Shown here: positions 22,212 to 37,153 of the stretch, piece by piece
Numbering within the stretch: the stretch's first letter is position 1
Layout: each line of letters opens with the position of its first letter
Source of the DNA: a virus
Virus record (IMG/VR): IMGVR_UViG_3300031576_000185
Location: 1-37,153 of that record
Reading direction: 5' to 3' (one strand)
DNA length: 37,153 bases
Made by a program: the position numbers and the translations under genes
Notes under the pieces: model-generated
What the model was told of the DNA's origin: nothing
Databases searched by the model: none
The model's input: only the letters and a program-made list of their open reading frames with translations

Positions 22212-22561
22212 CAGGTGAACACCCCCAGGTTGGCGAGGAACGACCCACGGGAGTCGAAAGACTCCTCGAAGTTGCGCGACATCAGGTAGGCGGGCTTGGA
22301 GCGCTCGTTGACCGCGAACTCGTAGCTGTTCCATCCGCGGTTCGCCGCCGAGCGCAGGTACGCATCGGTCGCGGGCTCGCCCCAGATGGACAGGTAGATG
22401 GAGCTGAACAGCGCCATCCTCTTGGCGACGATCGGGTCGATCGCAGGTGCCGAGCTGCCCGACGATGACGAGCTGCTCGACGACGAACCACCTGAACTGC
22501 CCCCGTCACCGGGGAGGTCGATGACGATGCCACCCTCGTCCGGTCGATCACCCATAGTCAT
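22211..22561 (-). CDS. Small helical protein coupled to giant gene
   Basis: A 116-residue protein from ATG 22561, overlapping the giant gene's end by 14 bases. Residues 10-42 are Gly/Ser rich with a run of Ser (GGSSGGSSSSSSSSSGSSAP), a flexible linker. The remainder is a helical domain (DPIVAKRMALFSSIYLSIWG, then GWNSYEFAVNERSKPAYLMS). Its AV.xSKxxY end matches a motif in the following 303-residue protein. It is probably a small internal-virion partner of the giant; nothing enzymatic is visible. Confidence 0.8.
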   Translation of the reverse strand: MTMGDRPDEGGIVIDLPGDGGSSGGSSSSSSSSSGSSAPAIDPIVAKRMALFSSIYLSIWGEPATDAYLRSAANRGWNSYEFAVNERSKPAYLMSRNFEESFDSRGSFLANLGVFT

Positions 22562-25500
22562 GCACCCCCAATGGTCCGAAGTAAGAATCCGGCATGAACA
22601 ACCCCGAGCCGCCGATGATGGGCTCCCCGGTCGCGGCCTTGAGCGCGTCCCAGGACTCGGTGAAGGCGGGCGACCACTCGCGGTACTCCTTCGCGCGCTC
22701 GGCCAGCGCCTTCGCGGCCAAAGCGTAGACGCGGCGTTCGTCGTCGGTCCCGAAGTCCTCGCCCTGCAGCTCGTATCGGTTGACCTGTTCTTGGAGGCCC
22801 CGCGCGGTCTCCAACAGGTTCCGCCATGCCCAGCCCGCCTTGCCCGGCAACTCGGGGTAGCCCGCCTGCTCCAGCGCCCAGCCCCACCTGTTGGTCGCCT
22901 TCACGACGGCATCGAAGCTCGCGTCTTCGCCGAGGTGGCCCCGGACGTAGGTGTTGATGGCCTTGAACCCGTCGGACTCGGAGTAACCGACCGGGTCGGC
23001 CTCCTCCGCCTGGGCGATGCGGACACGGGCGTCGGCTATCTCGGCGAGCCACCCCGCGGCCTTGGACGTGGTGTCGAGGCCCATGAGGTGGAAGTCCCAG
23101 CGGGAATAGAACACCAGGGGCTTGCCGACGAGCCCCTCCCGATACTGCTCGCGGTAGTAGTGGCCCTGGCCCTTCCACCAGCCCTCGAGGACCTTCGGGT
23201 GTTCCGCAAGCATCTTGTCCATCTGTGTCGCGAGCTGCAGGTAGGCACGGGAGCGCTGGGCCTCGGTCTCGAACCCGGTCACCGTCTGCTGGCGGAGATC
23301 CTCGATCCGGTTGTCGAGCCGCGTCACGTCACGCTGCAAGCCCGGGCCGAGGTCCGCGTAGTTCCAGTCCGCTTCGCCGATCGAGTAGACGAGGTCGTCG
23401 GTATAGGTCACCTTGCCCGCCTCGGAGAGGCCGACCCCGAAGTAGTTGACCAGGAAGGGGCGGATGTCGGGGGCCTCGGCCAAGGTGTCGGTGACGACCG
23501 CCTGGTAGCGCTTGAACAGGTCGGCGGCCCGGTCGTCGTTGATGTCGGTGAGACGCTTCCGGGTCATCTCCTCACGGATGGCCTCGGTGCCCTCAAGGTA
23601 GGTGCGAAGCGCCAACGGCCCGGGCATGTCGGAGATGCCGGGGGTGTTCACGATCGCCCAAGCGTCTTGGCGGATGTCATCGACCAACGCCTGTTTGCCG
23701 TTGACACCATAAGCGCGGACGTACTCGGTGGTTCCGTCCGGCGCGGTGTCGCGGGTGATGTTCAGCGCGCCCCACGCGGGGAACCGTGCAGCCAGCCCCT
23801 CGTAGAACTCCGAGCGCATCTGTTTGAGCTGCAGGTAGGCGTGGTCAGACTCGTCCAGCCCGCGCTCACCCAGGCGCGCGAGCCCGGGGTTCCACACCTC
23901 CTGGTAGAACCGGGTCACCTCCTGCTGGGCGGGCTGCGCCTGGGCAGCGGTGAGGTACTCGTTCGGTCCTCGGTAGCGCATCACGCCCGAGGCGATGAAC
24001 TGCGCGAAGACCGAGAAGTCCCGTTGTTCGGCGAGCGTCGGGTCGGTCCCGATCAGCATCAGCGCGGCCCATTGGGGGTTGGTCCGCATGAACTCGCCGA
24101 TGCCTTCGGTCGCGTAGAGCTGGCGGACCAGGTCCGAAGGGTTGATCCGGGGAGCCTTCTGTCCTTCGGAGTAGCCGCCCTCCATCTGCGTCCGCCCGGC
24201 GACCACGAAATACTTCTCCGGGTGGTCGGCCAAGAAAGCCTGCGTCGCGGCGAAGAAGTCGTCACCAGCCGCGGTGAGGTAGGTGTCGAACAGCTCTTGG
24301 TCCGCGGCCTGCTCGCGGTCGACGAGACGCGCCGAGGCCGGGGTGAACAGGCTCGTGACCGCGCGGACGAGCAACAGGTCATCGGCATAGGCCGCCGCGA
24401 GACGGTCTAACTCCTGCGGTGGCAGCGGCTTGCCGTCGTCATCGACGTCCAGACCCATGACGTGCATCGCTGCGGTGACCGTCAGCATCATCGAAGCGTG
24501 CTGCGAGTCGTGGAACAGCGCCGGGAACGCGGCGCGGATGGGCGCCTGCAAGATGGGCGGGACCAGGCGCATCGGCGACTGCGAGCCGAACTGGAACAGC
24601 CAGCCCGAGAGCCACTGCGACCGGGAGTTGGCGAACACCTTCTGCAACCCCTGGACCAGGACCGGGTCCATGCCGGGGACCGGGATCGGCACCCCGCCGG
24701 CTATCCGTCCGATGATCCCGCCACCCGGGAGCGTGAGCGTCGTGGAGGTCAACATATTGAGCGACGTGATAGGGGTCGACCAGTCCATGCGGTCAAGCAT
24801 CTTGCGGTCCCCGCCGAACAGCGCGTTCACGAGCAGCGCGACCGGGCGGTAGGCCGAGAGCGGGATCACGTATTCGCCCGACTGCGGGTCCTTCCGGATG
24901 AACCCCGAATCCAGCCCGAGCTGCCACAGCGCCCGCCCGCGCCCGATGGCCTCGGGGTTCCGCCACGCGATGTGACCCCATGCCTGGAAGCCCTCGAAGA
25001 ACGGCTGCGGGAACGGGAAGAAGGTCTGCAGCAGCTCCGTGAACCGCGACTGACGGGTGAAGTCGAACATCACCCGGCGGACCTGGCCGAGCGCGAAGTC
25101 CCGCGAGGCGTTGGAGATCGCGTCACGGATGGCGGAGAACGTCGCAAGTTCCTGTCGCGCCTTCGAGGAAAGGGACGCTACCTGGCCCGCGAGAGGGTTG
25201 GTCTTAGACAGGGAGGTCACTGGGGTCACGTCATAAGACGCTCCTGAGTAACTCGCGGACCGCCGTGCGACCTGCTCCATCTGCGCTCGCGGGAGACCCT
25301 CAGCCCACTCAACCATCCCAAGGTCAGAGTCCTGCCAGGCCGTATAGGCGCCGGAGCGCGGCGACTCGGCTTCCGCCATCGTGATCTCTCGGCCGCCGAC
25401 CGCGAGGACATCCTCGTCGGCCACATCATCGCCGATGTCCAACGACGACCGTGTCTCCGCGATCATCCCCTGTTCGTCGAGTGCTCGCACCTTCACGCGG

Positions 25501-28500
25501 TAAGCGCCCACCACTATTTCGAGTGGAACCGCCTCCGTCGTGCTCGGTCCCCGCCCGAAGTTGTCGGACAAGGACTCGGGCTTACGGAACACGACCACGA
25601 CACGCTCCTCGGAAGACCCGAAGCCTGGCCGCTTGCCGAACGCCTGGCCGTAGCTCCGGTTGACGTAGCCGGCGGCACCTGACATCTCATGCGCGAAGAA
25701 GGTCTCGCCCTGACGTGCTTTCTGCACACCGCCCGCCCGGAAGAACCCTTCCGCCTGGGCCCGAGCGAACTCATCGAGGGACATGCCCCGGTAGACGACG
25801 TCCTGGCCGTACACCTGCTGGGCAACGGGGTCGAGGGCATTGCCGAAACGCTGATGTTCGTTGTCAGCCGAGGAGAAGGGAAGCTCCTTCCGCAGCGCCT
25901 CCGCAACCTCATCGGTGGAGTTCAGAGGCACAGCGCCCGAGGCCGTAGTGCGGACTGCATCGTCCAGCGAGGCGAACCCGAGCGCTCTCACCTCCGCCTG
26001 CGCGGTTGGCGCCAGGGGGGTGTCTCTGAGCGCCCGGTAGGCGCCCTTCTCGTAGCGCGCCTTCCAGGTCTTGTAGTAGGGCTGGCGGTTGAGCGCGTCT
26101 TCGGGCAGCCGCACGAACCATTCGTAGAGGTGGTCGGTGACGCGGGTGACGGCGTTGCCATCGAGCAGCGTCTCCAGCTGCGCCCCGTGGACCGGTGGCC
26201 GGTCAGCGGTCTTCGTACCCTGCAGCACTCGATGAAGCGCCTTGCGGTCACCGTCGAGGACCACCTGCGCGATGGTCTTATCGCCGAGCGTGTAGCCGTG
26301 AGCGAACCCCGCGACGTCGGTTGCCCACAGCTCGACGTCGGTGGGGTCGATCCCGATGCGCGAGCGAAGGGTGGTGAAGTTGTCGGTGCGCGCCCATGCC
26401 ACGAGCGCCCGCTCGGTGGCGTCGATGGTGTCGCCGGCCTTCACCGACTCCAGCGCCAGGCGGCCCGGCTCGGAGCGGCGGAGCTGGTTGTGGAGCGCAT
26501 GGCCCCAGAAGTTGAGGTGCTGGGTCTCGCCGGGGGCGATCTTCCCCCACTTGCCGCCGACCGCGAGCGTCTTGTTGTAAAGCGTCGCGCCGCGCATCAC
26601 TTCCTCGATCAGCTCGTTCTCACGGATGCGTGCCACCGCGAGCGGCTCGTAGTCATACGCCCCAGGCCGCGGGATCCGGACCGGCGTGTCGCCGACCTGG
26701 ATGACCTCGTCGAACCAGTCATCGAGCTTGCGGCTCAAGAAGTTGGCTTTGCCCTGGCGCGTGAGGGCGAGCGAGATGAGCCGTTCGGTGAGCGAGCCCG
26801 CCGTCGCCAGGAACCGCGCGTTCTCGTCGATGCCGATGACCCTGATGACGTAGGCGGGCCGCGCCACGGTGTACGCACGCCAGGCTTTCCGGTAGCCGCG
26901 GTGCCAGTCGCGGCTACGGTCCATGATCGCGACGAACGCCCGGTGCACGGCATCATCGGATGCGATCCCGAGCGGTTCGAGGTTCTGCCTGAGCAGCCGC
27001 GACGCGCGTGTGCGCGCGGATATGACCCGGCGGACATATTGCTGGACCTGGATCGGGTCGGTGACGTGAAGGAAGTTCGCGAGCTGGGTTTCGAGCAATG
27101 GTGTGTCCACCACCTGTCCGCCCCGGCGGACCATGAACGCCTGCTCGCGGGTGTTGAGCGTCCGGGTCCGGTTGAACACGTCGGCATGTATCTGCTTGCG
27201 GAAGTCATCGCTCAGGTTGTAGGGCGCGAGGTAGGTGTCGAGCCCGAGGGTGTCCATCTCGTCGATGAGCTTCCCGAGGCGCTTCTCGATGCCACGCCCG
27301 GAGTTGATGATCTCGACCGCCTTGGACTGGAACAGCCGCACCGAGTCTTCGTCGTAGTTCCCCCACCGCCGGGCGTGCAGCATCACGTATTCGGCGGCGC
27401 GGTCATGCACCGCGAGCCTGCGCCCGGGGTTGATGGAGATGATGCGCGAGCTGCGCCGGGCCAAGAACAGGTTCCGGGTCGCCAGCGGGGAAGTGACGGC
27501 GGTGCGGAGGAGACGGCGCGGTCCGTATTCGCCGAAGAACGACCGGCCCGGCAGCTCGACCGACAGTGGCGGGATATAGGCCAGCTCGTTCGCCCCGGCC
27601 CCCGTCTCGTCGGCGAGCCTGACGTAGCCACCGGATGGCCCGTCGTAGCGGTAGCCCGAGACGGTCTCCTCGAACAGCTTGGGCTGGTGGATGAAGTCAT
27701 CGGCGAGCTGCTCCGCGCGGAAGCCGAGCGCGGCCCGTGCGGCGACGACCTCCGCGGCGACCGTGCCAGCGGGGGCGGAACCGACGAAGTGCGCGACGAT
27801 GCCCTGCTGCCACGCCTCCCACGCCTCGTTCCCACCGTCTCCGAAGCGCTGGCGGACCTTGTCGCGGAGCGCCTTCATGTACGCGAGGTCCAGGGTGCCG
27901 CGGGCCTCGTAGGTCCCGCGCAGGCGCTCGATGCGGCGGAAGTAGCGGGTGACGTTCCCGCCGGCCATCGCATCGTTGAACAGCCGACGCGAGGTTCCCG
28001 AGCGGGCGAACGCGGGGATGGCCTTCGCCCACGCCGCCGCCTGACGTTCGGCTATCTCGTCGAACCGCTTGACGACGGTGAACTCGATGCCGCCGCGGAG
28101 CTGGATCTTGAGCCCCGGCAGCTTGTTCGCCACCAGCCCCGGGATCGTCACCTTCTGCAGCGTGCCCGGCAGCACCCGGCCCGAACGCATGGCCTTCGCC
28201 GCCGCGCCCGCGACGACGAACGGGTCCGCGACCCAGGAGGCCAGGAAGTCGAACGCCGTGCCGGACCACTCCGGGGCCTCGAAGGCGTAGATAGGGTTCT
28301 TCCCGATGCCTTCTTCGAAGAAGTCCCCGACCGTGTCGCCTTCTTCGATGCGCCGCCACAGGTAGGCGTGCATCCGCTGCATCGCTTTGACGTTGTCGAG
28401 GGCGGTCTCGCCCTGGGGGTCCAGCCCCATCGCGGCCATCGTCGCGGCGGTGGTGCCGACGATGCCGGTCCCGCCGCTGACGAGGCCCTTCTGGGTGACG

Positions 28501-29456
28501 TTCCACAGGCCGTTGAAGAAACCCCCCAGCGTGTTCAGGCGTTGTCCGAACCACGAGGTCTCGAACGCCTCGGCATCAGCGCGGAGCTGGGTCTGGATGG
28601 CTTCGACCTCGTCCCAATAGGCCGGGCCGAGCTCGGCTTGGAACAGCGCGCCTTCGCCGGTCGCGGGCCTCGGCAGACCGATGGTCCCGGATAGGAGGGG
28701 GGTGTCATCGGTGATGATGGCGTCGGTGCCCAACTGCTCGGACAGCTTCTCTTCGAGCTCGCGGGCCTCGACCACGTCGGTTGAGAACAGCTTCACTTGG
28801 AGTTCGCGGACGTCGGTGAGCGTCACACCCAACATCGACTGGCTGATGGCATGGCCGAGCACCGTCTGGGTGTCACTGGTCCCGTATGCCAGCGCCCAGT
28901 CCCGGACCACCTCGATGTTGCGCGCCAGGCGTGCGGGTCCGACGCCGTCTTTCGCCAGCTGCGCGGCCAGCGCCACCCCTTGGTCGAACGCGAGATCGTC
29001 ACCGAACGAGCGCGACAACACCAGCAAGAGACGCGATACACCGTTGGGGTCGATCTTGCGTTCCTTCCGCCCGGCCACATCGGCCGCGACGACGCCAGAG
29101 ATCATCGACGCCACCGCGACCGGCGCGAAGGAATCGGAGAACCGCTGGGCTTGGCGGAGGCTCAGCGGCTCGTCGGTGAACGGGTCGCGGTAGGACTTCG
29201 GGTCGATGTTGCCGAACAGGTAGTTGGGCGTGATGTCGAACCGCTTGGCGATGAGGCGCGAGATGCGGGCCAGGCGGCGCTCGTCTTCGTCGAGGTCGGC
29301 GAGGTACATGACCACCTCGGTCGGAAGCGTCGAGCGGGACTGGGTCTCGACGAGTGCGAGGCGCTGGTAGTTCTGGCCCACCAAGACGTCGTCTTTGGGC
29401 GCGCCCGAGGTGTGGCGCTCGTCATCGCCACCTTCGCCGATCGGGCGCAGCGGCAC
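22548..29456 (-). CDS. Giant virion/ejection protein with embedded ADP-ribosyltransferase-like domain
   Basis: A 2302-residue protein from GTG 29456 (AAGGGC eight bases upstream), about a fifth of the window. Most is helical. Recognised features: an N-terminal region (to about 330) with a GGTGIVGTTAATMAAMG membrane-like stretch; a middle that includes many Arg-rich helices; and at residues about 1219-1330 a compact alpha/beta domain with YRGMSLDEF (Arg1223), ETFFAHE (1251-1257), RVVVVFRKP and a TTEAVPLEIVVGAYRV segment (Glu1308, Glu1313), the R-S/T-E order of mono-ADP-ribosyltransferases. Around 1500-1560 FDFTRQSRF and FFPFPQPFFEGFQAW recall giant phage polyvalent or internal virion proteins. 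The protein is most likely packaged in the capsid and ejected. A tape-measure role is less likely because of its position between portal and capsid. Confidence 0.93.
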   Translation of the reverse strand: MPLRPIGEGGDDERHTSGAPKDDVLVGQNYQRLALVETQSRSTLPTEVVMYLADLDEDERRLARISRLIAKRFDITPNYLFGNIDPKSYRDPFTDEPLSLRQAQRFSDSFAPVAVASMISGVVAADVAGRKERKIDPNGVSRLLLVLSRSFGDDLAFDQGVALAAQLAKDGVGPARLARNIEVVRDWALAYGTSDTQTVLGHAISQSMLGVTLTDVRELQVKLFSTDVVEARELEEKLSEQLGTDAIITDDTPLLSGTIGLPRPATGEGALFQAELGPAYWDEVEAIQTQLRADAEAFETSWFGQRLNTLGGFFNGLWNVTQKGLVSGGTGIVGTTAATMAAMGLDPQGETALDNVKAMQRMHAYLWRRIEEGDTVGDFFEEGIGKNPIYAFEAPEWSGTAFDFLASWVADPFVVAGAAAKAMRSGRVLPGTLQKVTIPGLVANKLPGLKIQLRGGIEFTVVKRFDEIAERQAAAWAKAIPAFARSGTSRRLFNDAMAGGNVTRYFRRIERLRGTYEARGTLDLAYMKALRDKVRQRFGDGGNEAWEAWQQGIVAHFVGSAPAGTVAAEVVAARAALGFRAEQLADDFIHQPKLFEETVSGYRYDGPSGGYVRLADETGAGANELAYIPPLSVELPGRSFFGEYGPRRLLRTAVTSPLATRNLFLARRSSRIISINPGRRLAVHDRAAEYVMLHARRWGNYDEDSVRLFQSKAVEIINSGRGIEKRLGKLIDEMDTLGLDTYLAPYNLSDDFRKQIHADVFNRTRTLNTREQAFMVRRGGQVVDTPLLETQLANFLHVTDPIQVQQYVRRVISARTRASRLLRQNLEPLGIASDDAVHRAFVAIMDRSRDWHRGYRKAWRAYTVARPAYVIRVIGIDENARFLATAGSLTERLISLALTRQGKANFLSRKLDDWFDEVIQVGDTPVRIPRPGAYDYEPLAVARIRENELIEEVMRGATLYNKTLAVGGKWGKIAPGETQHLNFWGHALHNQLRRSEPGRLALESVKAGDTIDATERALVAWARTDNFTTLRSRIGIDPTDVELWATDVAGFAHGYTLGDKTIAQVVLDGDRKALHRVLQGTKTADRPPVHGAQLETLLDGNAVTRVTDHLYEWFVRLPEDALNRQPYYKTWKARYEKGAYRALRDTPLAPTAQAEVRALGFASLDDAVRTTASGAVPLNSTDEVAEALRKELPFSSADNEHQRFGNALDPVAQQVYGQDVVYRGMSLDEFARAQAEGFFRAGGVQKARQGETFFAHEMSGAAGYVNRSYGQAFGKRPGFGSSEERVVVVFRKPESLSDNFGRGPSTTEAVPLEIVVGAYRVKVRALDEQGMIAETRSSLDIGDDVADEDVLAVGGREITMAEAESPRSGAYTAWQDSDLGMVEWAEGLPRAQMEQVARRSASYSGASYDVTPVTSLSKTNPLAGQVASLSSKARQELATFSAIRDAISNASRDFALGQVRRVMFDFTRQSRFTELLQTFFPFPQPFFEGFQAWGHIAWRNPEAIGRGRALWQLGLDSGFIRKDPQSGEYVIPLSAYRPVALLVNALFGGDRKMLDRMDWSTPITSLNMLTSTTLTLPGGGIIGRIAGGVPIPVPGMDPVLVQGLQKVFANSRSQWLSGWLFQFGSQSPMRLVPPILQAPIRAAFPALFHDSQHASMMLTVTAAMHVMGLDVDDDGKPLPPQELDRLAAAYADDLLLVRAVTSLFTPASARLVDREQAADQELFDTYLTAAGDDFFAATQAFLADHPEKYFVVAGRTQMEGGYSEGQKAPRINPSDLVRQLYATEGIGEFMRTNPQWAALMLIGTDPTLAEQRDFSVFAQFIASGVMRYRGPNEYLTAAQAQPAQQEVTRFYQEVWNPGLARLGERGLDESDHAYLQLKQMRSEFYEGLAARFPAWGALNITRDTAPDGTTEYVRAYGVNGKQALVDDIRQDAWAIVNTPGISDMPGPLALRTYLEGTEAIREEMTRKRLTDINDDRAADLFKRYQAVVTDTLAEAPDIRPFLVNYFGVGLSEAGKVTYTDDLVYSIGEADWNYADLGPGLQRDVTRLDNRIEDLRQQTVTGFETEAQRSRAYLQLATQMDKMLAEHPKVLEGWWKGQGHYYREQYREGLVGKPLVFYSRWDFHLMGLDTTSKAAGWLAEIADARVRIAQAEEADPVGYSESDGFKAINTYVRGHLGEDASFDAVVKATNRWGWALEQAGYPELPGKAGWAWRNLLETARGLQEQVNRYELQGEDFGTDDERRVYALAAKALAERAKEYREWSPAFTESWDALKAATGEPIIGGSGLFMPDSYFGPLGVHDYG

Positions 29457-34608: not shown

Positions 34609-35655
34609 ATGGAGACCGACCGGAAGGAACTACTCCAGGCGTTGCGCCGGTTCGGCGCCGCGGTGCGAGCGCAGAAGACTCCCCGAGTCGAGCTGCTCGA
34701 GTCCACCGGCAACATGGTGACGGTGGACTCCACTATACGCATCTCGCCGTTGGTGCTGGATGACTTCCCGGCGCTTGACTTCGCTGCGAAGCCTCCGCAT
34801 GCACGGCTCGACGCGGGGGACTTCGCCGCGTTGGTGGGCGAGGTCGCGCCGGCCGCCAGCAAGGATGAGGCCCGGCCGATCCTGACCGGCTGCGCGCTCG
34901 AGCCGGGCACCGGTGAGATCACGCTCACGGCCACCGACTCATATCGGCTGCATACGGGGACGCGGCCGGCCAGCGTGGAACAAGGCTGGTCGGCCGTCGT
35001 GCCAGCGCGAGCGTTGGTTGCGGCTGCGAAGATGGCGGGGCGCGACCCTGGCGAGGTCACCATCACGGTGACCGACCATCATGTAGTCGTCGCATCGCTC
35101 GCGGGCCGTTGGTGGCTCGGGGTGCGGACGATCGCAGGGAGCTTCCCCAGCTGGCGCCAGCTGATGCCGGCAGGCGGGCTGGGTGTCACCGTGGATGCTC
35201 CGGCCGCCCTTGCCGATGCCGTGGCAGCTGCTAAGCCGTGGTGCCTCGAGAACGCGCCGGTCATCGTCCGGATGACGGCGCACGGTCTGACGGTCGAGGT
35301 CCACCCGGCCGGTATCGGGAACTATGGGCCGGTGGCGCTTGAAGCAGACGTGCCCGCCGACCAGGTCGGCGCGGCGATAGCCCTGAACAGGTCATACCTC
35401 GCCGACGCCCTCAAGGCAACGGGTGGCGCCGAGCTGCGCTGGCCGGTGGGTTCCATGGGCGCGCCGACCGCGCTCAGGCCCATGATGGCGGTCGGGAACG
35501 GCATACGGGCGCTCATCATGCCGGTGCGCCTCCCTGCTAGTTCGGAGCCACAACCAGAAGCCGTCGAGGCTGAGGCTCAGGCGGCTAGGGCTCCTCTGAG
35601 GCAGCGAGCATCCAGCTCTCACCATGGAGCTGGGTGCTGGTGGCCTCAACGCTGA
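34609..35655 (+). CDS. dnaN: DNA sliding clamp (beta subunit-like)
   Basis: A 348-residue protein with GGAGGG seven to eight bases before ATG 34609. It matches the C-terminal two domains of bacterial beta clamps: ARPILTGCALEPGTGEITLT then ATDSYRLH (domain II, residues 88-115), VDAPAALADAVAAA and LNRSYLADALKATGG (domain III) and PTALRPMMAVGNG, ALIMPVRL (304-308), which is the usual clamp end. The clamp encircles DNA and tethers polymerase. Two oddities: domain I before residue about 68 is roughly half the usual length, and about 40 residues (rich in Glu, Ala then Ser/His/Trp) follow the normal end. No polymerase gene is in the window, so the phage probably loads host polymerase or one lies outside. 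Confidence 0.88.
   Translation: METDRKELLQALRRFGAAVRAQKTPRVELLESTGNMVTVDSTIRISPLVLDDFPALDFAAKPPHARLDAGDFAALVGEVAPAASKDEARPILTGCALEPGTGEITLTATDSYRLHTGTRPASVEQGWSAVVPARALVAAAKMAGRDPGEVTITVTDHHVVVASLAGRWWLGVRTIAGSFPSWRQLMPAGGLGVTVDAPAALADAVAAAKPWCLENAPVIVRMTAHGLTVEVHPAGIGNYGPVALEADVPADQVGAAIALNRSYLADALKATGGAELRWPVGSMGAPTALRPMMAVGNGIRALIMPVRLPASSEPQPEAVEAEAQAARAPLRQRASSSHHGAGCWWPQR
35608..35637 (+). terminator. Hairpin at end of clamp gene
   Basis: GCATCCAGCTC, loop TCACCATG, GAGCTGGGTGC: an 11-bp stem with one G-T wobble, inside the clamp's C-terminal tail. A smaller hairpin CCTCA-ACGC-TGAGG follows at 35643-35656. Lying between convergent genes (35655 and 35706) they could terminate from either side. 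No U-run is present. Confidence 0.5.
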
Positions 35656-35705: not shown

Positions 35706-36005
35706 TCAGGTCGTCGAGGAAGTCGGTCCGCATCCGGGGGGTCCATCGCCGTTCCACTTATCTGGACTCGTTCCGCGAACAGCCAGCTCCACGCTCGTTA
35801 TCGCGATGGTGTACACCCAGCTCCGCCGTGAGTGATCGTAGTGGAACGCCGTCACCTCGCCCCTCAGCGTGCCTGTGACTTCTTGCCCGCAGCCCTTAAG
35901 CGGATCCTTGAACCACTCGGCGAACAGCTCGACGTCGACGGGCAGGTTCTTGACCGAGATCAGACTGACCATGCCGGACTCAGGCAACGGGAACGGGCTC
36001 GTCAC
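35706..36005 (-). CDS. 99-aa protein of unknown function
   Basis: GTG 36005 with AAGGAG nine bases upstream starts within the end of the WhiB-like gene; ATG 35972 is an alternative. The product contains a small beta-rich domain: MVSLISVKNLPVDVELFAEW, TGTLRGEVTAFHYDHSRRSW and VYTIAITSVELAVRG, with two Cys well apart. I do not recognise the family. It is the last gene before the convergent clamp operon. A possible partner of the WhiB-like protein by coupling. Confidence 0.68.
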   Translation of the reverse strand: MTSPFPLPESGMVSLISVKNLPVDVELFAEWFKDPLKGCGQEVTGTLRGEVTAFHYDHSRRSWVYTIAITSVELAVRGTSPDKWNGDGPPGCGPTSSTT

Positions 36006-36564
36006 AGGCGGGGACTCCTTCCGCGATCAGGCGGCGGACGCGCTCTGCGACACTGACGCATCCGCGACATCGGTAGCCGGCCACGCACCAGCCGCGATCG
36101 TTCAGCGCGTGGTGCTTGACCGAGGGATGGTGCCGCTCGGTGGGAGTGGTCCCGCCCCAGACGTGGTAGGCGGGCGTGTAACTCACCTTGAACCGGCGGC
36201 GGATGTAGAGCGGGCCGCACCCACCGCAGCCCGAACCCAGGATGCACCCACCTGTGCCGTTGAGGTGCAGATGCCCGCCCTTGACGCACACTCGGCAACC
36301 AGGCTCACGACAGCCGGGTCGGTGTGTGATCTTGAAGACCGGGTCATCAGCGGTGAAGCTCTTATGCGCGGACTCGACCGTCAGCGCCTCGGTGAGACAC
36401 TCCCGGCGCACCGGGCAGACGGAACACACCGCCTTCGCGCGGCCGATGCGGGCGAGGTAGCTCCGCTGGGTCGCCGAGCCGCGCTCGGTGAAGAAGTCCT
36501 GGGTCGTCGACAGCCTGGCGCACGCAGCCTCATCCCGCCAGGGTCGGCCAGTGGGCACCCTCAC
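35980..36564 (-). CDS. WhiB-family iron-sulfur regulator with Cys-rich insertion
   Basis: A 194-residue protein from GTG 36564, overlapping the previous stop as GTGA; GTG 36573 is an alternative. Residues 9-60 hold the WhiB signature: WRDEAACA (Cys15), KAVCSVCPVRREC (Cys47, Cys50, Cys56), four ligands of a [4Fe-4S] cluster. The usual GVWGG turn should follow closely, but HVWGGTTPTER stands at 134-144, about 79 residues on. Between lie Cys85, 90, 93, 107, 113, 116 in a Gly/His-rich segment. After the turn are Cys160, 166, 169, 187 and a helix VAERVRRL. Wbl proteins bind sigma factor or DNA and regulate transcription; phage ones have been implicated in host takeover or regulation. Interpretation as an insertion versus a fusion with an unrelated zinc protein is open. 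Confidence 0.86.
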   Translation of the reverse strand: MRVPTGRPWRDEAACARLSTTQDFFTERGSATQRSYLARIGRAKAVCSVCPVRRECLTEALTVESAHKSFTADDPVFKITHRPGCREPGCRVCVKGGHLHLNGTGGCILGSGCGGCGPLYIRRRFKVSYTPAYHVWGGTTPTERHHPSVKHHALNDRGWCVAGYRCRGCVSVAERVRRLIAEGVPACDEPVPVA

Positions 36565-37153
36565 AGGCTCCACGGTCCCCACCCTCCACCCTTGACCATC
36601 CTGGCCGCAGCCCACGCGTTAGCGCGGGCCTGCAACACGGCAACGATGGGTGCGTGCGGGAAGTACCGCTCGGGCAGATACGCCGCAGCTCGGCCCGGCC
36701 AGTAGCGGGCGAGATGCTGGAACAGCCCGCACGACCCGTGCGGGTCCGCGTCGTAGGGGCGGCACGCCGATGCGGTCCAAGGGTTGCGTGCCCAGGGGAT
36801 GTACCGCGACTCTCGATAGGCGACGACCAACGCGGTCGGCACCTCCTGCGCTACGCCGACAGCGGTGAAGACGCACCGGATCAGCGCCCGCATCCTGCGT
36901 TCACGAGTGATCACCGGGGTCTGGTGGTCGACCTCGAACCTCCTGGCGCTGCATGGGCCGCGCCCGGTAGCGGCCGCCGGGATAGCGCCCACCACGAGCG
37001 CCACGATGAGCACGGCGGTGGTTGGGAAGGTAAGGCCCTTGATATGCGAGCCCCGCGTGTCGTCTAGCTGGTCCATCACCCTCCGATGCTCGGTGCCCAT
37101 GGCGTCGAGGGCGGCGGCGAACCTCGGCACGTCCGGCCAGTGATGCGCCAGCA
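36561..37153 (-). CDS. Membrane-anchored transglycosylase/lysozyme-like lysin, start beyond window
   Basis: The frame is open to the right window edge; GTG 37130 is the first start in view, 189 codons from the stop, but no ribosome site precedes it, so the true start is probably outside. One membrane segment lies at residues about 35-54 (TFPTTAVLIVALVVGAIPAA). The catalytic-domain pattern is VVAYRESRYIPWARNP (Glu107 is the candidate acid), SCGLFQHLARYWPGRAAAY and KGGGWGPWSL, as in transglycosylase or lysozyme-like domains of actinophage. It would cut the glycan strand at the cell wall. It overlaps the WhiB-like gene as GTGA. A virion-bound role cannot be ruled out. Confidence 0.8.
   Translation of the reverse strand, partial: LAHHWPDVPRFAAALDAMGTEHRRVMDQLDDTRGSHIKGLTFPTTAVLIVALVVGAIPAAATGRGPCSARRFEVDHQTPVITRERRMRALIRCVFTAVGVAQEVPTALVVAYRESRYIPWARNPWTASACRPYDADPHGSCGLFQHLARYWPGRAAAYLPERYFPHAPIVAVLQARANAWAAARMVKGGGWGPWSL

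Follow-up and report, generated by a model that had tools for sequence, protein, structure and literature searches.

WhiB1 and WhiB3, which belong to classes I and III of the Wbl proteins, share four cysteines, a set of sigma-binding aromatic residues (a tryptophan and an FF pair) and a VWGG turn. In WhiB3, F31, F32 and W76 are each needed for binding region 4 of sigma-A (PMC10245118), while in WhiB1 the first glycine of the turn is required for DNA binding (PMC3390391). A short loop between the last cysteine and the turn is usual, though the review of the family does not state it as defining; it also allows larger members, namely WblM, WblO and WblP (PMC6282962). Wbls are also encoded by phages, and one of these, WhiBTM4, represses the host whiB2 (PMC6282962; PMC8612146).

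The window analyzed here is the whole of a 37,153-nucleotide stretch of viral DNA (IMG/VR record IMGVR_UViG_3300031576_000185) and belongs to a virus of actinobacteria. Matches to terminase, portal, head and scaffold genes, along with a sliding clamp and an exonuclease, mark it as a tailed phage; the terminase shares about 25% identity with those of Streptomyces phages. An ORF of 2302 residues (22548-29456, minus strand), lying between portal and head genes, shows no more than a weak match to phrog_10618, a family of unknown function. The Wbl gene (35980..36564, minus strand) codes for 194 amino acids, running from a GTG start at 36564 to a stop codon ending at 35980. The GTG and the stop codon of the upstream ORF overlap as GTGA, and a 99-residue ORF begins within the 3′ end of the gene. 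The upstream ORF (36561-37130, minus strand) has no Pfam match over the cut-off; its terminal stretch, CGLFQH...GGGWGPWSL, has the look of a phage lysozyme or transglycosylase. A DNA polymerase III β-clamp gene (34609-35655, plus strand; phrog_947, E=1e-32; Pfam DNA_pol3_beta_2, 5.2e-13) adjoins the terminase and is convergent to the Wbl gene.

The 194-residue protein matches the Pfam Whib profile with E=5.6e-12 in two stretches, of which the better extends to position 49 of the 65 in the profile, and PHROG and PDB searches likewise match it to WhiB. The Wbl core, delimited by the Pfam match, invariant alignment columns and model pLDDT, comprises residues 9-64 (36373..36540, minus strand) and contains W9, C15, F24-F25 and C47-x2-C50-x5-C56. 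It thus displays the family trait of C-x2-C-x5-C with an upstream cysteine, and all four of these cysteines fall in invariant columns of Wbl alignments. W9, F24, F25 and W136 align with W3, F17, F18 and W60 of WhiB1, and by this alignment the aromatic residues with which WhiB1 and WhiB3 bind sigma-A region 4 are all kept. The protein is longer than the 81–139 residues typical of Wbls, a size that is not defining for the family. In total it has 14 cysteines: the four of the core, six (85, 90, 93, 107, 113, 116) between C56 and a VWGG at residues 135-138, and four (160, 166, 169, 187) after it, with 78 residues separating C56 from V135. The ORF translation matches the cysteine positions and the VWGG location of the original prediction, which had been made by reading the sequence without database searches.

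That prediction had allowed that the VWGG match might be due to chance. We scored the segment against a 12-column profile of the Wbl turn built from 47 other Wbls: YHVWGGTTPTER, covering the β-turn and the start of helix 4 (residues 133-144; 36133..36168, minus strand), obtains 27.4 bits, within the 19.5–37.8 bits of true Wbls. None of 20,000 shuffles reaches this value, the best of them scoring 16.7 bits, and no other ORF in the window exceeds 11.0 bits. In phmmer comparisons with the WhiB1, WhiB2-type and WhiB3 proteins of the PDB, a second collinear stretch, weak by itself, covers VWGGTTPTER. The turn reads HVWGG, agreeing with G[V/I]WGG at four of five positions and carrying a histidine in place of the first glycine, and it is not directly followed by a strong basic patch. 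From these scores we reject chance and read the VWGG as the true Wbl turn.

Structure modeling gives a picture that varies with the alignment supplied. When this includes the turn, AlphaFold yields a block with pLDDT of 76-94 over residues 11-70 and a pLDDT of about 79 at the turn, and VIA-align superposes residues 7-149 of the model on 75 of the 75 residues of WhiB3 (Z 9.9, rmsd 2.4). When the relatives are cut before the turn, it is left unplaced (pLDDT 25-29 over residues 131-150) and residues 95-154 fall below a pLDDT of 50; the insert is folded with low confidence in both models. Packing of VWGG on the core, a check suggested at the outset, is hence obtained with the turn in the alignment and lost with the truncated relatives; because of this dependence on the alignment, the turn-containing model would indicate compatibility with the Wbl fold rather than independent proof. 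The unaided model's failure to place the turn, together with the occurrence of a repeated Cys module on both sides of it (see below), could be taken to mean that the turn match is fortuitous and that a truncated Wbl core is fused to a single unrelated C-terminal Cys-rich domain. Against this stand the profile score, which no shuffle attained, and its distance from the best other ORF of the window, and we regard such a fusion as very improbable.

Whether the protein is aligned with host Wbls or with a set of 48 Wbls from phages and hosts, MAFFT opens one main gap, about 66 residues long, in the loop leading from helix 3 to the turn; a few of the 48 aligned Wbls have small loop extensions of their own at the same place. 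The gap defines an inserted segment at residues 65-132 (36169..36372, minus strand), which on its own has no match in Pfam or PHROG, known zinc domains included. With a true turn preceded by this gap, the insertion originally proposed is well supported, and in our assessment a genuine Wbl domain has here been lengthened by about 66 residues in the loop between helix 3 and the turn. No match to a known domain was found. Inteins are larger than this segment, and one was set aside on account of its length.

The extra cysteines are arranged as three copies of C-x4/5-C-x2-C, each with an upstream histidine, two lying in the insert and one after the turn. As defined by Cys/His spacing, module 1 (H-x3-C-x4-C-x2-C) occupies residues 81-93 (36286..36324, minus strand). 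Modules 2 and 3 share the form H..LN..G.C-x5-C-x2-C and, recognized also by their likeness to each other, occupy residues 98-116 (36217..36273, minus strand) and 151-169 (36058..36114, minus strand), respectively. When the tail is shuffled 200,000 times, three such modules arise in 24 cases. Modules 2 and 3, comparing insert with C-terminus, align with a score of 51, matched in 12 of 20,000 shuffles, or in 86 of 20,000 with the cysteines held fixed; module 1 is related to both by spacing only. The structure models further predict a basic C-terminal helix at residues 167-181 (36022..36066, minus strand). The additional cysteines of the original prediction stand; it had overlooked the repeat and its copy beyond the turn.

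Since searches of IMG/VR, INPHARED, PLSDB and, with the tail, of genomes found no detectable relatives of the modules, it is their spacing that points to zinc. The pattern would suit three zinc sites of the CCCH type in addition to the [4Fe-4S] site, and it is in this form that we would infer the dual metal regulator originally proposed. Alternatively, the insert might bind no zinc, its cysteines instead forming disulfides or serving as extra Fe-S ligands for redox sensing over a wider range, or it might be a plain protein-interaction element. The sheer number of cysteines in a protein of this size and the low confidence with which the insert is modeled are in keeping with this, but the H..C-x4/5-C-x2-C spacing recurs regularly three times in a form fitting one tetrahedral zinc site each, and the reducing cytoplasm disfavors disulfides; we therefore deem a zinc-free insert unlikely.

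Across viral Wbls, both those fetched with the core alignment and those from long-gap scans, about 4–28 residues separate the fourth cysteine from the turn, as against 78 here. Split-signature scans turned up no further long-gap Wbl in IMG/VR, in 84,980 genomes or in 396 genomes of the phylum to which a Streptomyces genome belongs; as these scans require CPV, [V/I]WGG and particular gap ranges, and as records closely resembling the window may lie outside the set scanned, absence from them is not proof. With gap ranges of 217-247, 66-126 and 128-188 nt in viral contigs, and with an inner C-x2-C in genome contigs, the matches were either due to chance or ordinary Wbls whose gap is 23-28 residues. 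Matches at a gap of 42 (L150, L152, L156, L175) were discarded, their true turn (GVWAG) lying earlier; of two matches from two patterns in the 396 genomes of G001's phylum, the one in G299 has an in-frame stop and that in G001 is due to chance. Searches for relatives of the whole protein or its tail in IMG/VR, INPHARED and PLSDB recovered only Wbl-core matches, the search of the 396 genomes with the tail gave unrelated proteins among the matches examined, and the module pattern had a single chance match in viral contigs. No syntenic locus was reached through terminase relatives in IMG/VR, nor did the literature searched hold a paper on Wbls with inserted zinc modules. Relatives with the same insert, a search for which the original prediction had suggested, are thus lacking among the sequences examined: the split-signature layout is found in no other of them and is currently a singleton.

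A gene with no second copy in any collection searched invites suspicion of a sequencing or assembly artefact. This we hold to be improbable in the extreme, given an unbroken frame with overlapping neighbors and a core and insert alike in codon signal and GC. A codon test with other phage genes as its training set favors frame 0 over the core and insert; over the last third, from the turn to the C-terminus, it scores one reverse-complement frame marginally higher, and for this part we rely on protein-level evidence because of that marginal excess.

We propose, with a probability of roughly 55%, that the protein is a phage-encoded Wbl transcription factor whose core docks on sigma and whose zinc modules contact DNA or protein. 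The core would fold around a [4Fe-4S] cluster and dock on region 4 of the principal sigma factor of the host; the inserted and C-terminal modules, each presumably binding zinc to judge from their spacing, might replace the usual Arg-rich tail in contacting DNA or protein, and host RNA polymerase could thereby be directed toward phage promoters or kept from those of the host. We count against this proposal the alignment-dependent packing, the histidine at the first turn glycine, the lack of relatives of the modules and that of a strong basic patch directly after the turn. More tentatively, and well short of even odds, a zinc module in the loop leading to the sigma-contacting turn may place the sigma interface under the joint control of zinc binding and the [4Fe-4S] cluster. 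The retained sigma-binding aromatic residues, the Gly-to-His change and the precedent of WhiBTM4 (PMC6282962; PMC8612146) would also be consistent with a decoy that binds host sigma or displaces a host Wbl, with promoter specificity lost; we consider this rather unlikely, for it accounts neither for the repeated module nor for the basic helix at the C-terminus. Wbls are compact and the turn tryptophan helps bind sigma, and some 66 residues just before that turn in a natural member suggest that a large insertion is tolerated next to the working face of the domain. With this insertion one could test directly where the sigma interface depends on close spacing.

In comparison with known Wbls, the phage protein shares with WhiB1 and WhiB3 what is, in its model, the same arrangement of helices, but has 78 residues from the fourth cysteine to the turn as opposed to about 12, ten more cysteines and a histidine for the first turn glycine. 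Similar in architecture are phage Wbls that, as here, combine the core with a small metal-type Cys/His module, namely Microbacterium phage Pumpernickel gp105 (in L021) and those of L084, L087, L094, L107, L115, L117, L123 and L151, which the original prediction had not taken into account. Their modules all follow the turn and differ in sequence, only that of L087 being weakly similar (z about 3). Phage Wbls of L089 (2315-2914) and L151 have yet other Cys-rich modules C-terminal to the turn, and two different Wbl genes lie close together on each of the viral contigs L057, L082, L089, L090, L092, L098 and L115. Since a Cys module behind the turn is found in many phage Wbls, the novelty of the present protein would lie in the insertion within the domain, extending from the tail to the domain interior a trend among phages of adding small Cys modules to Wbls. 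WhiBTM4 of mycobacteriophage TM4 is, like the present protein, a phage Wbl (PMC8612146); it is described as highly similar to the host WhiB2, with no mention of such an insert in that description (PMC6282962).
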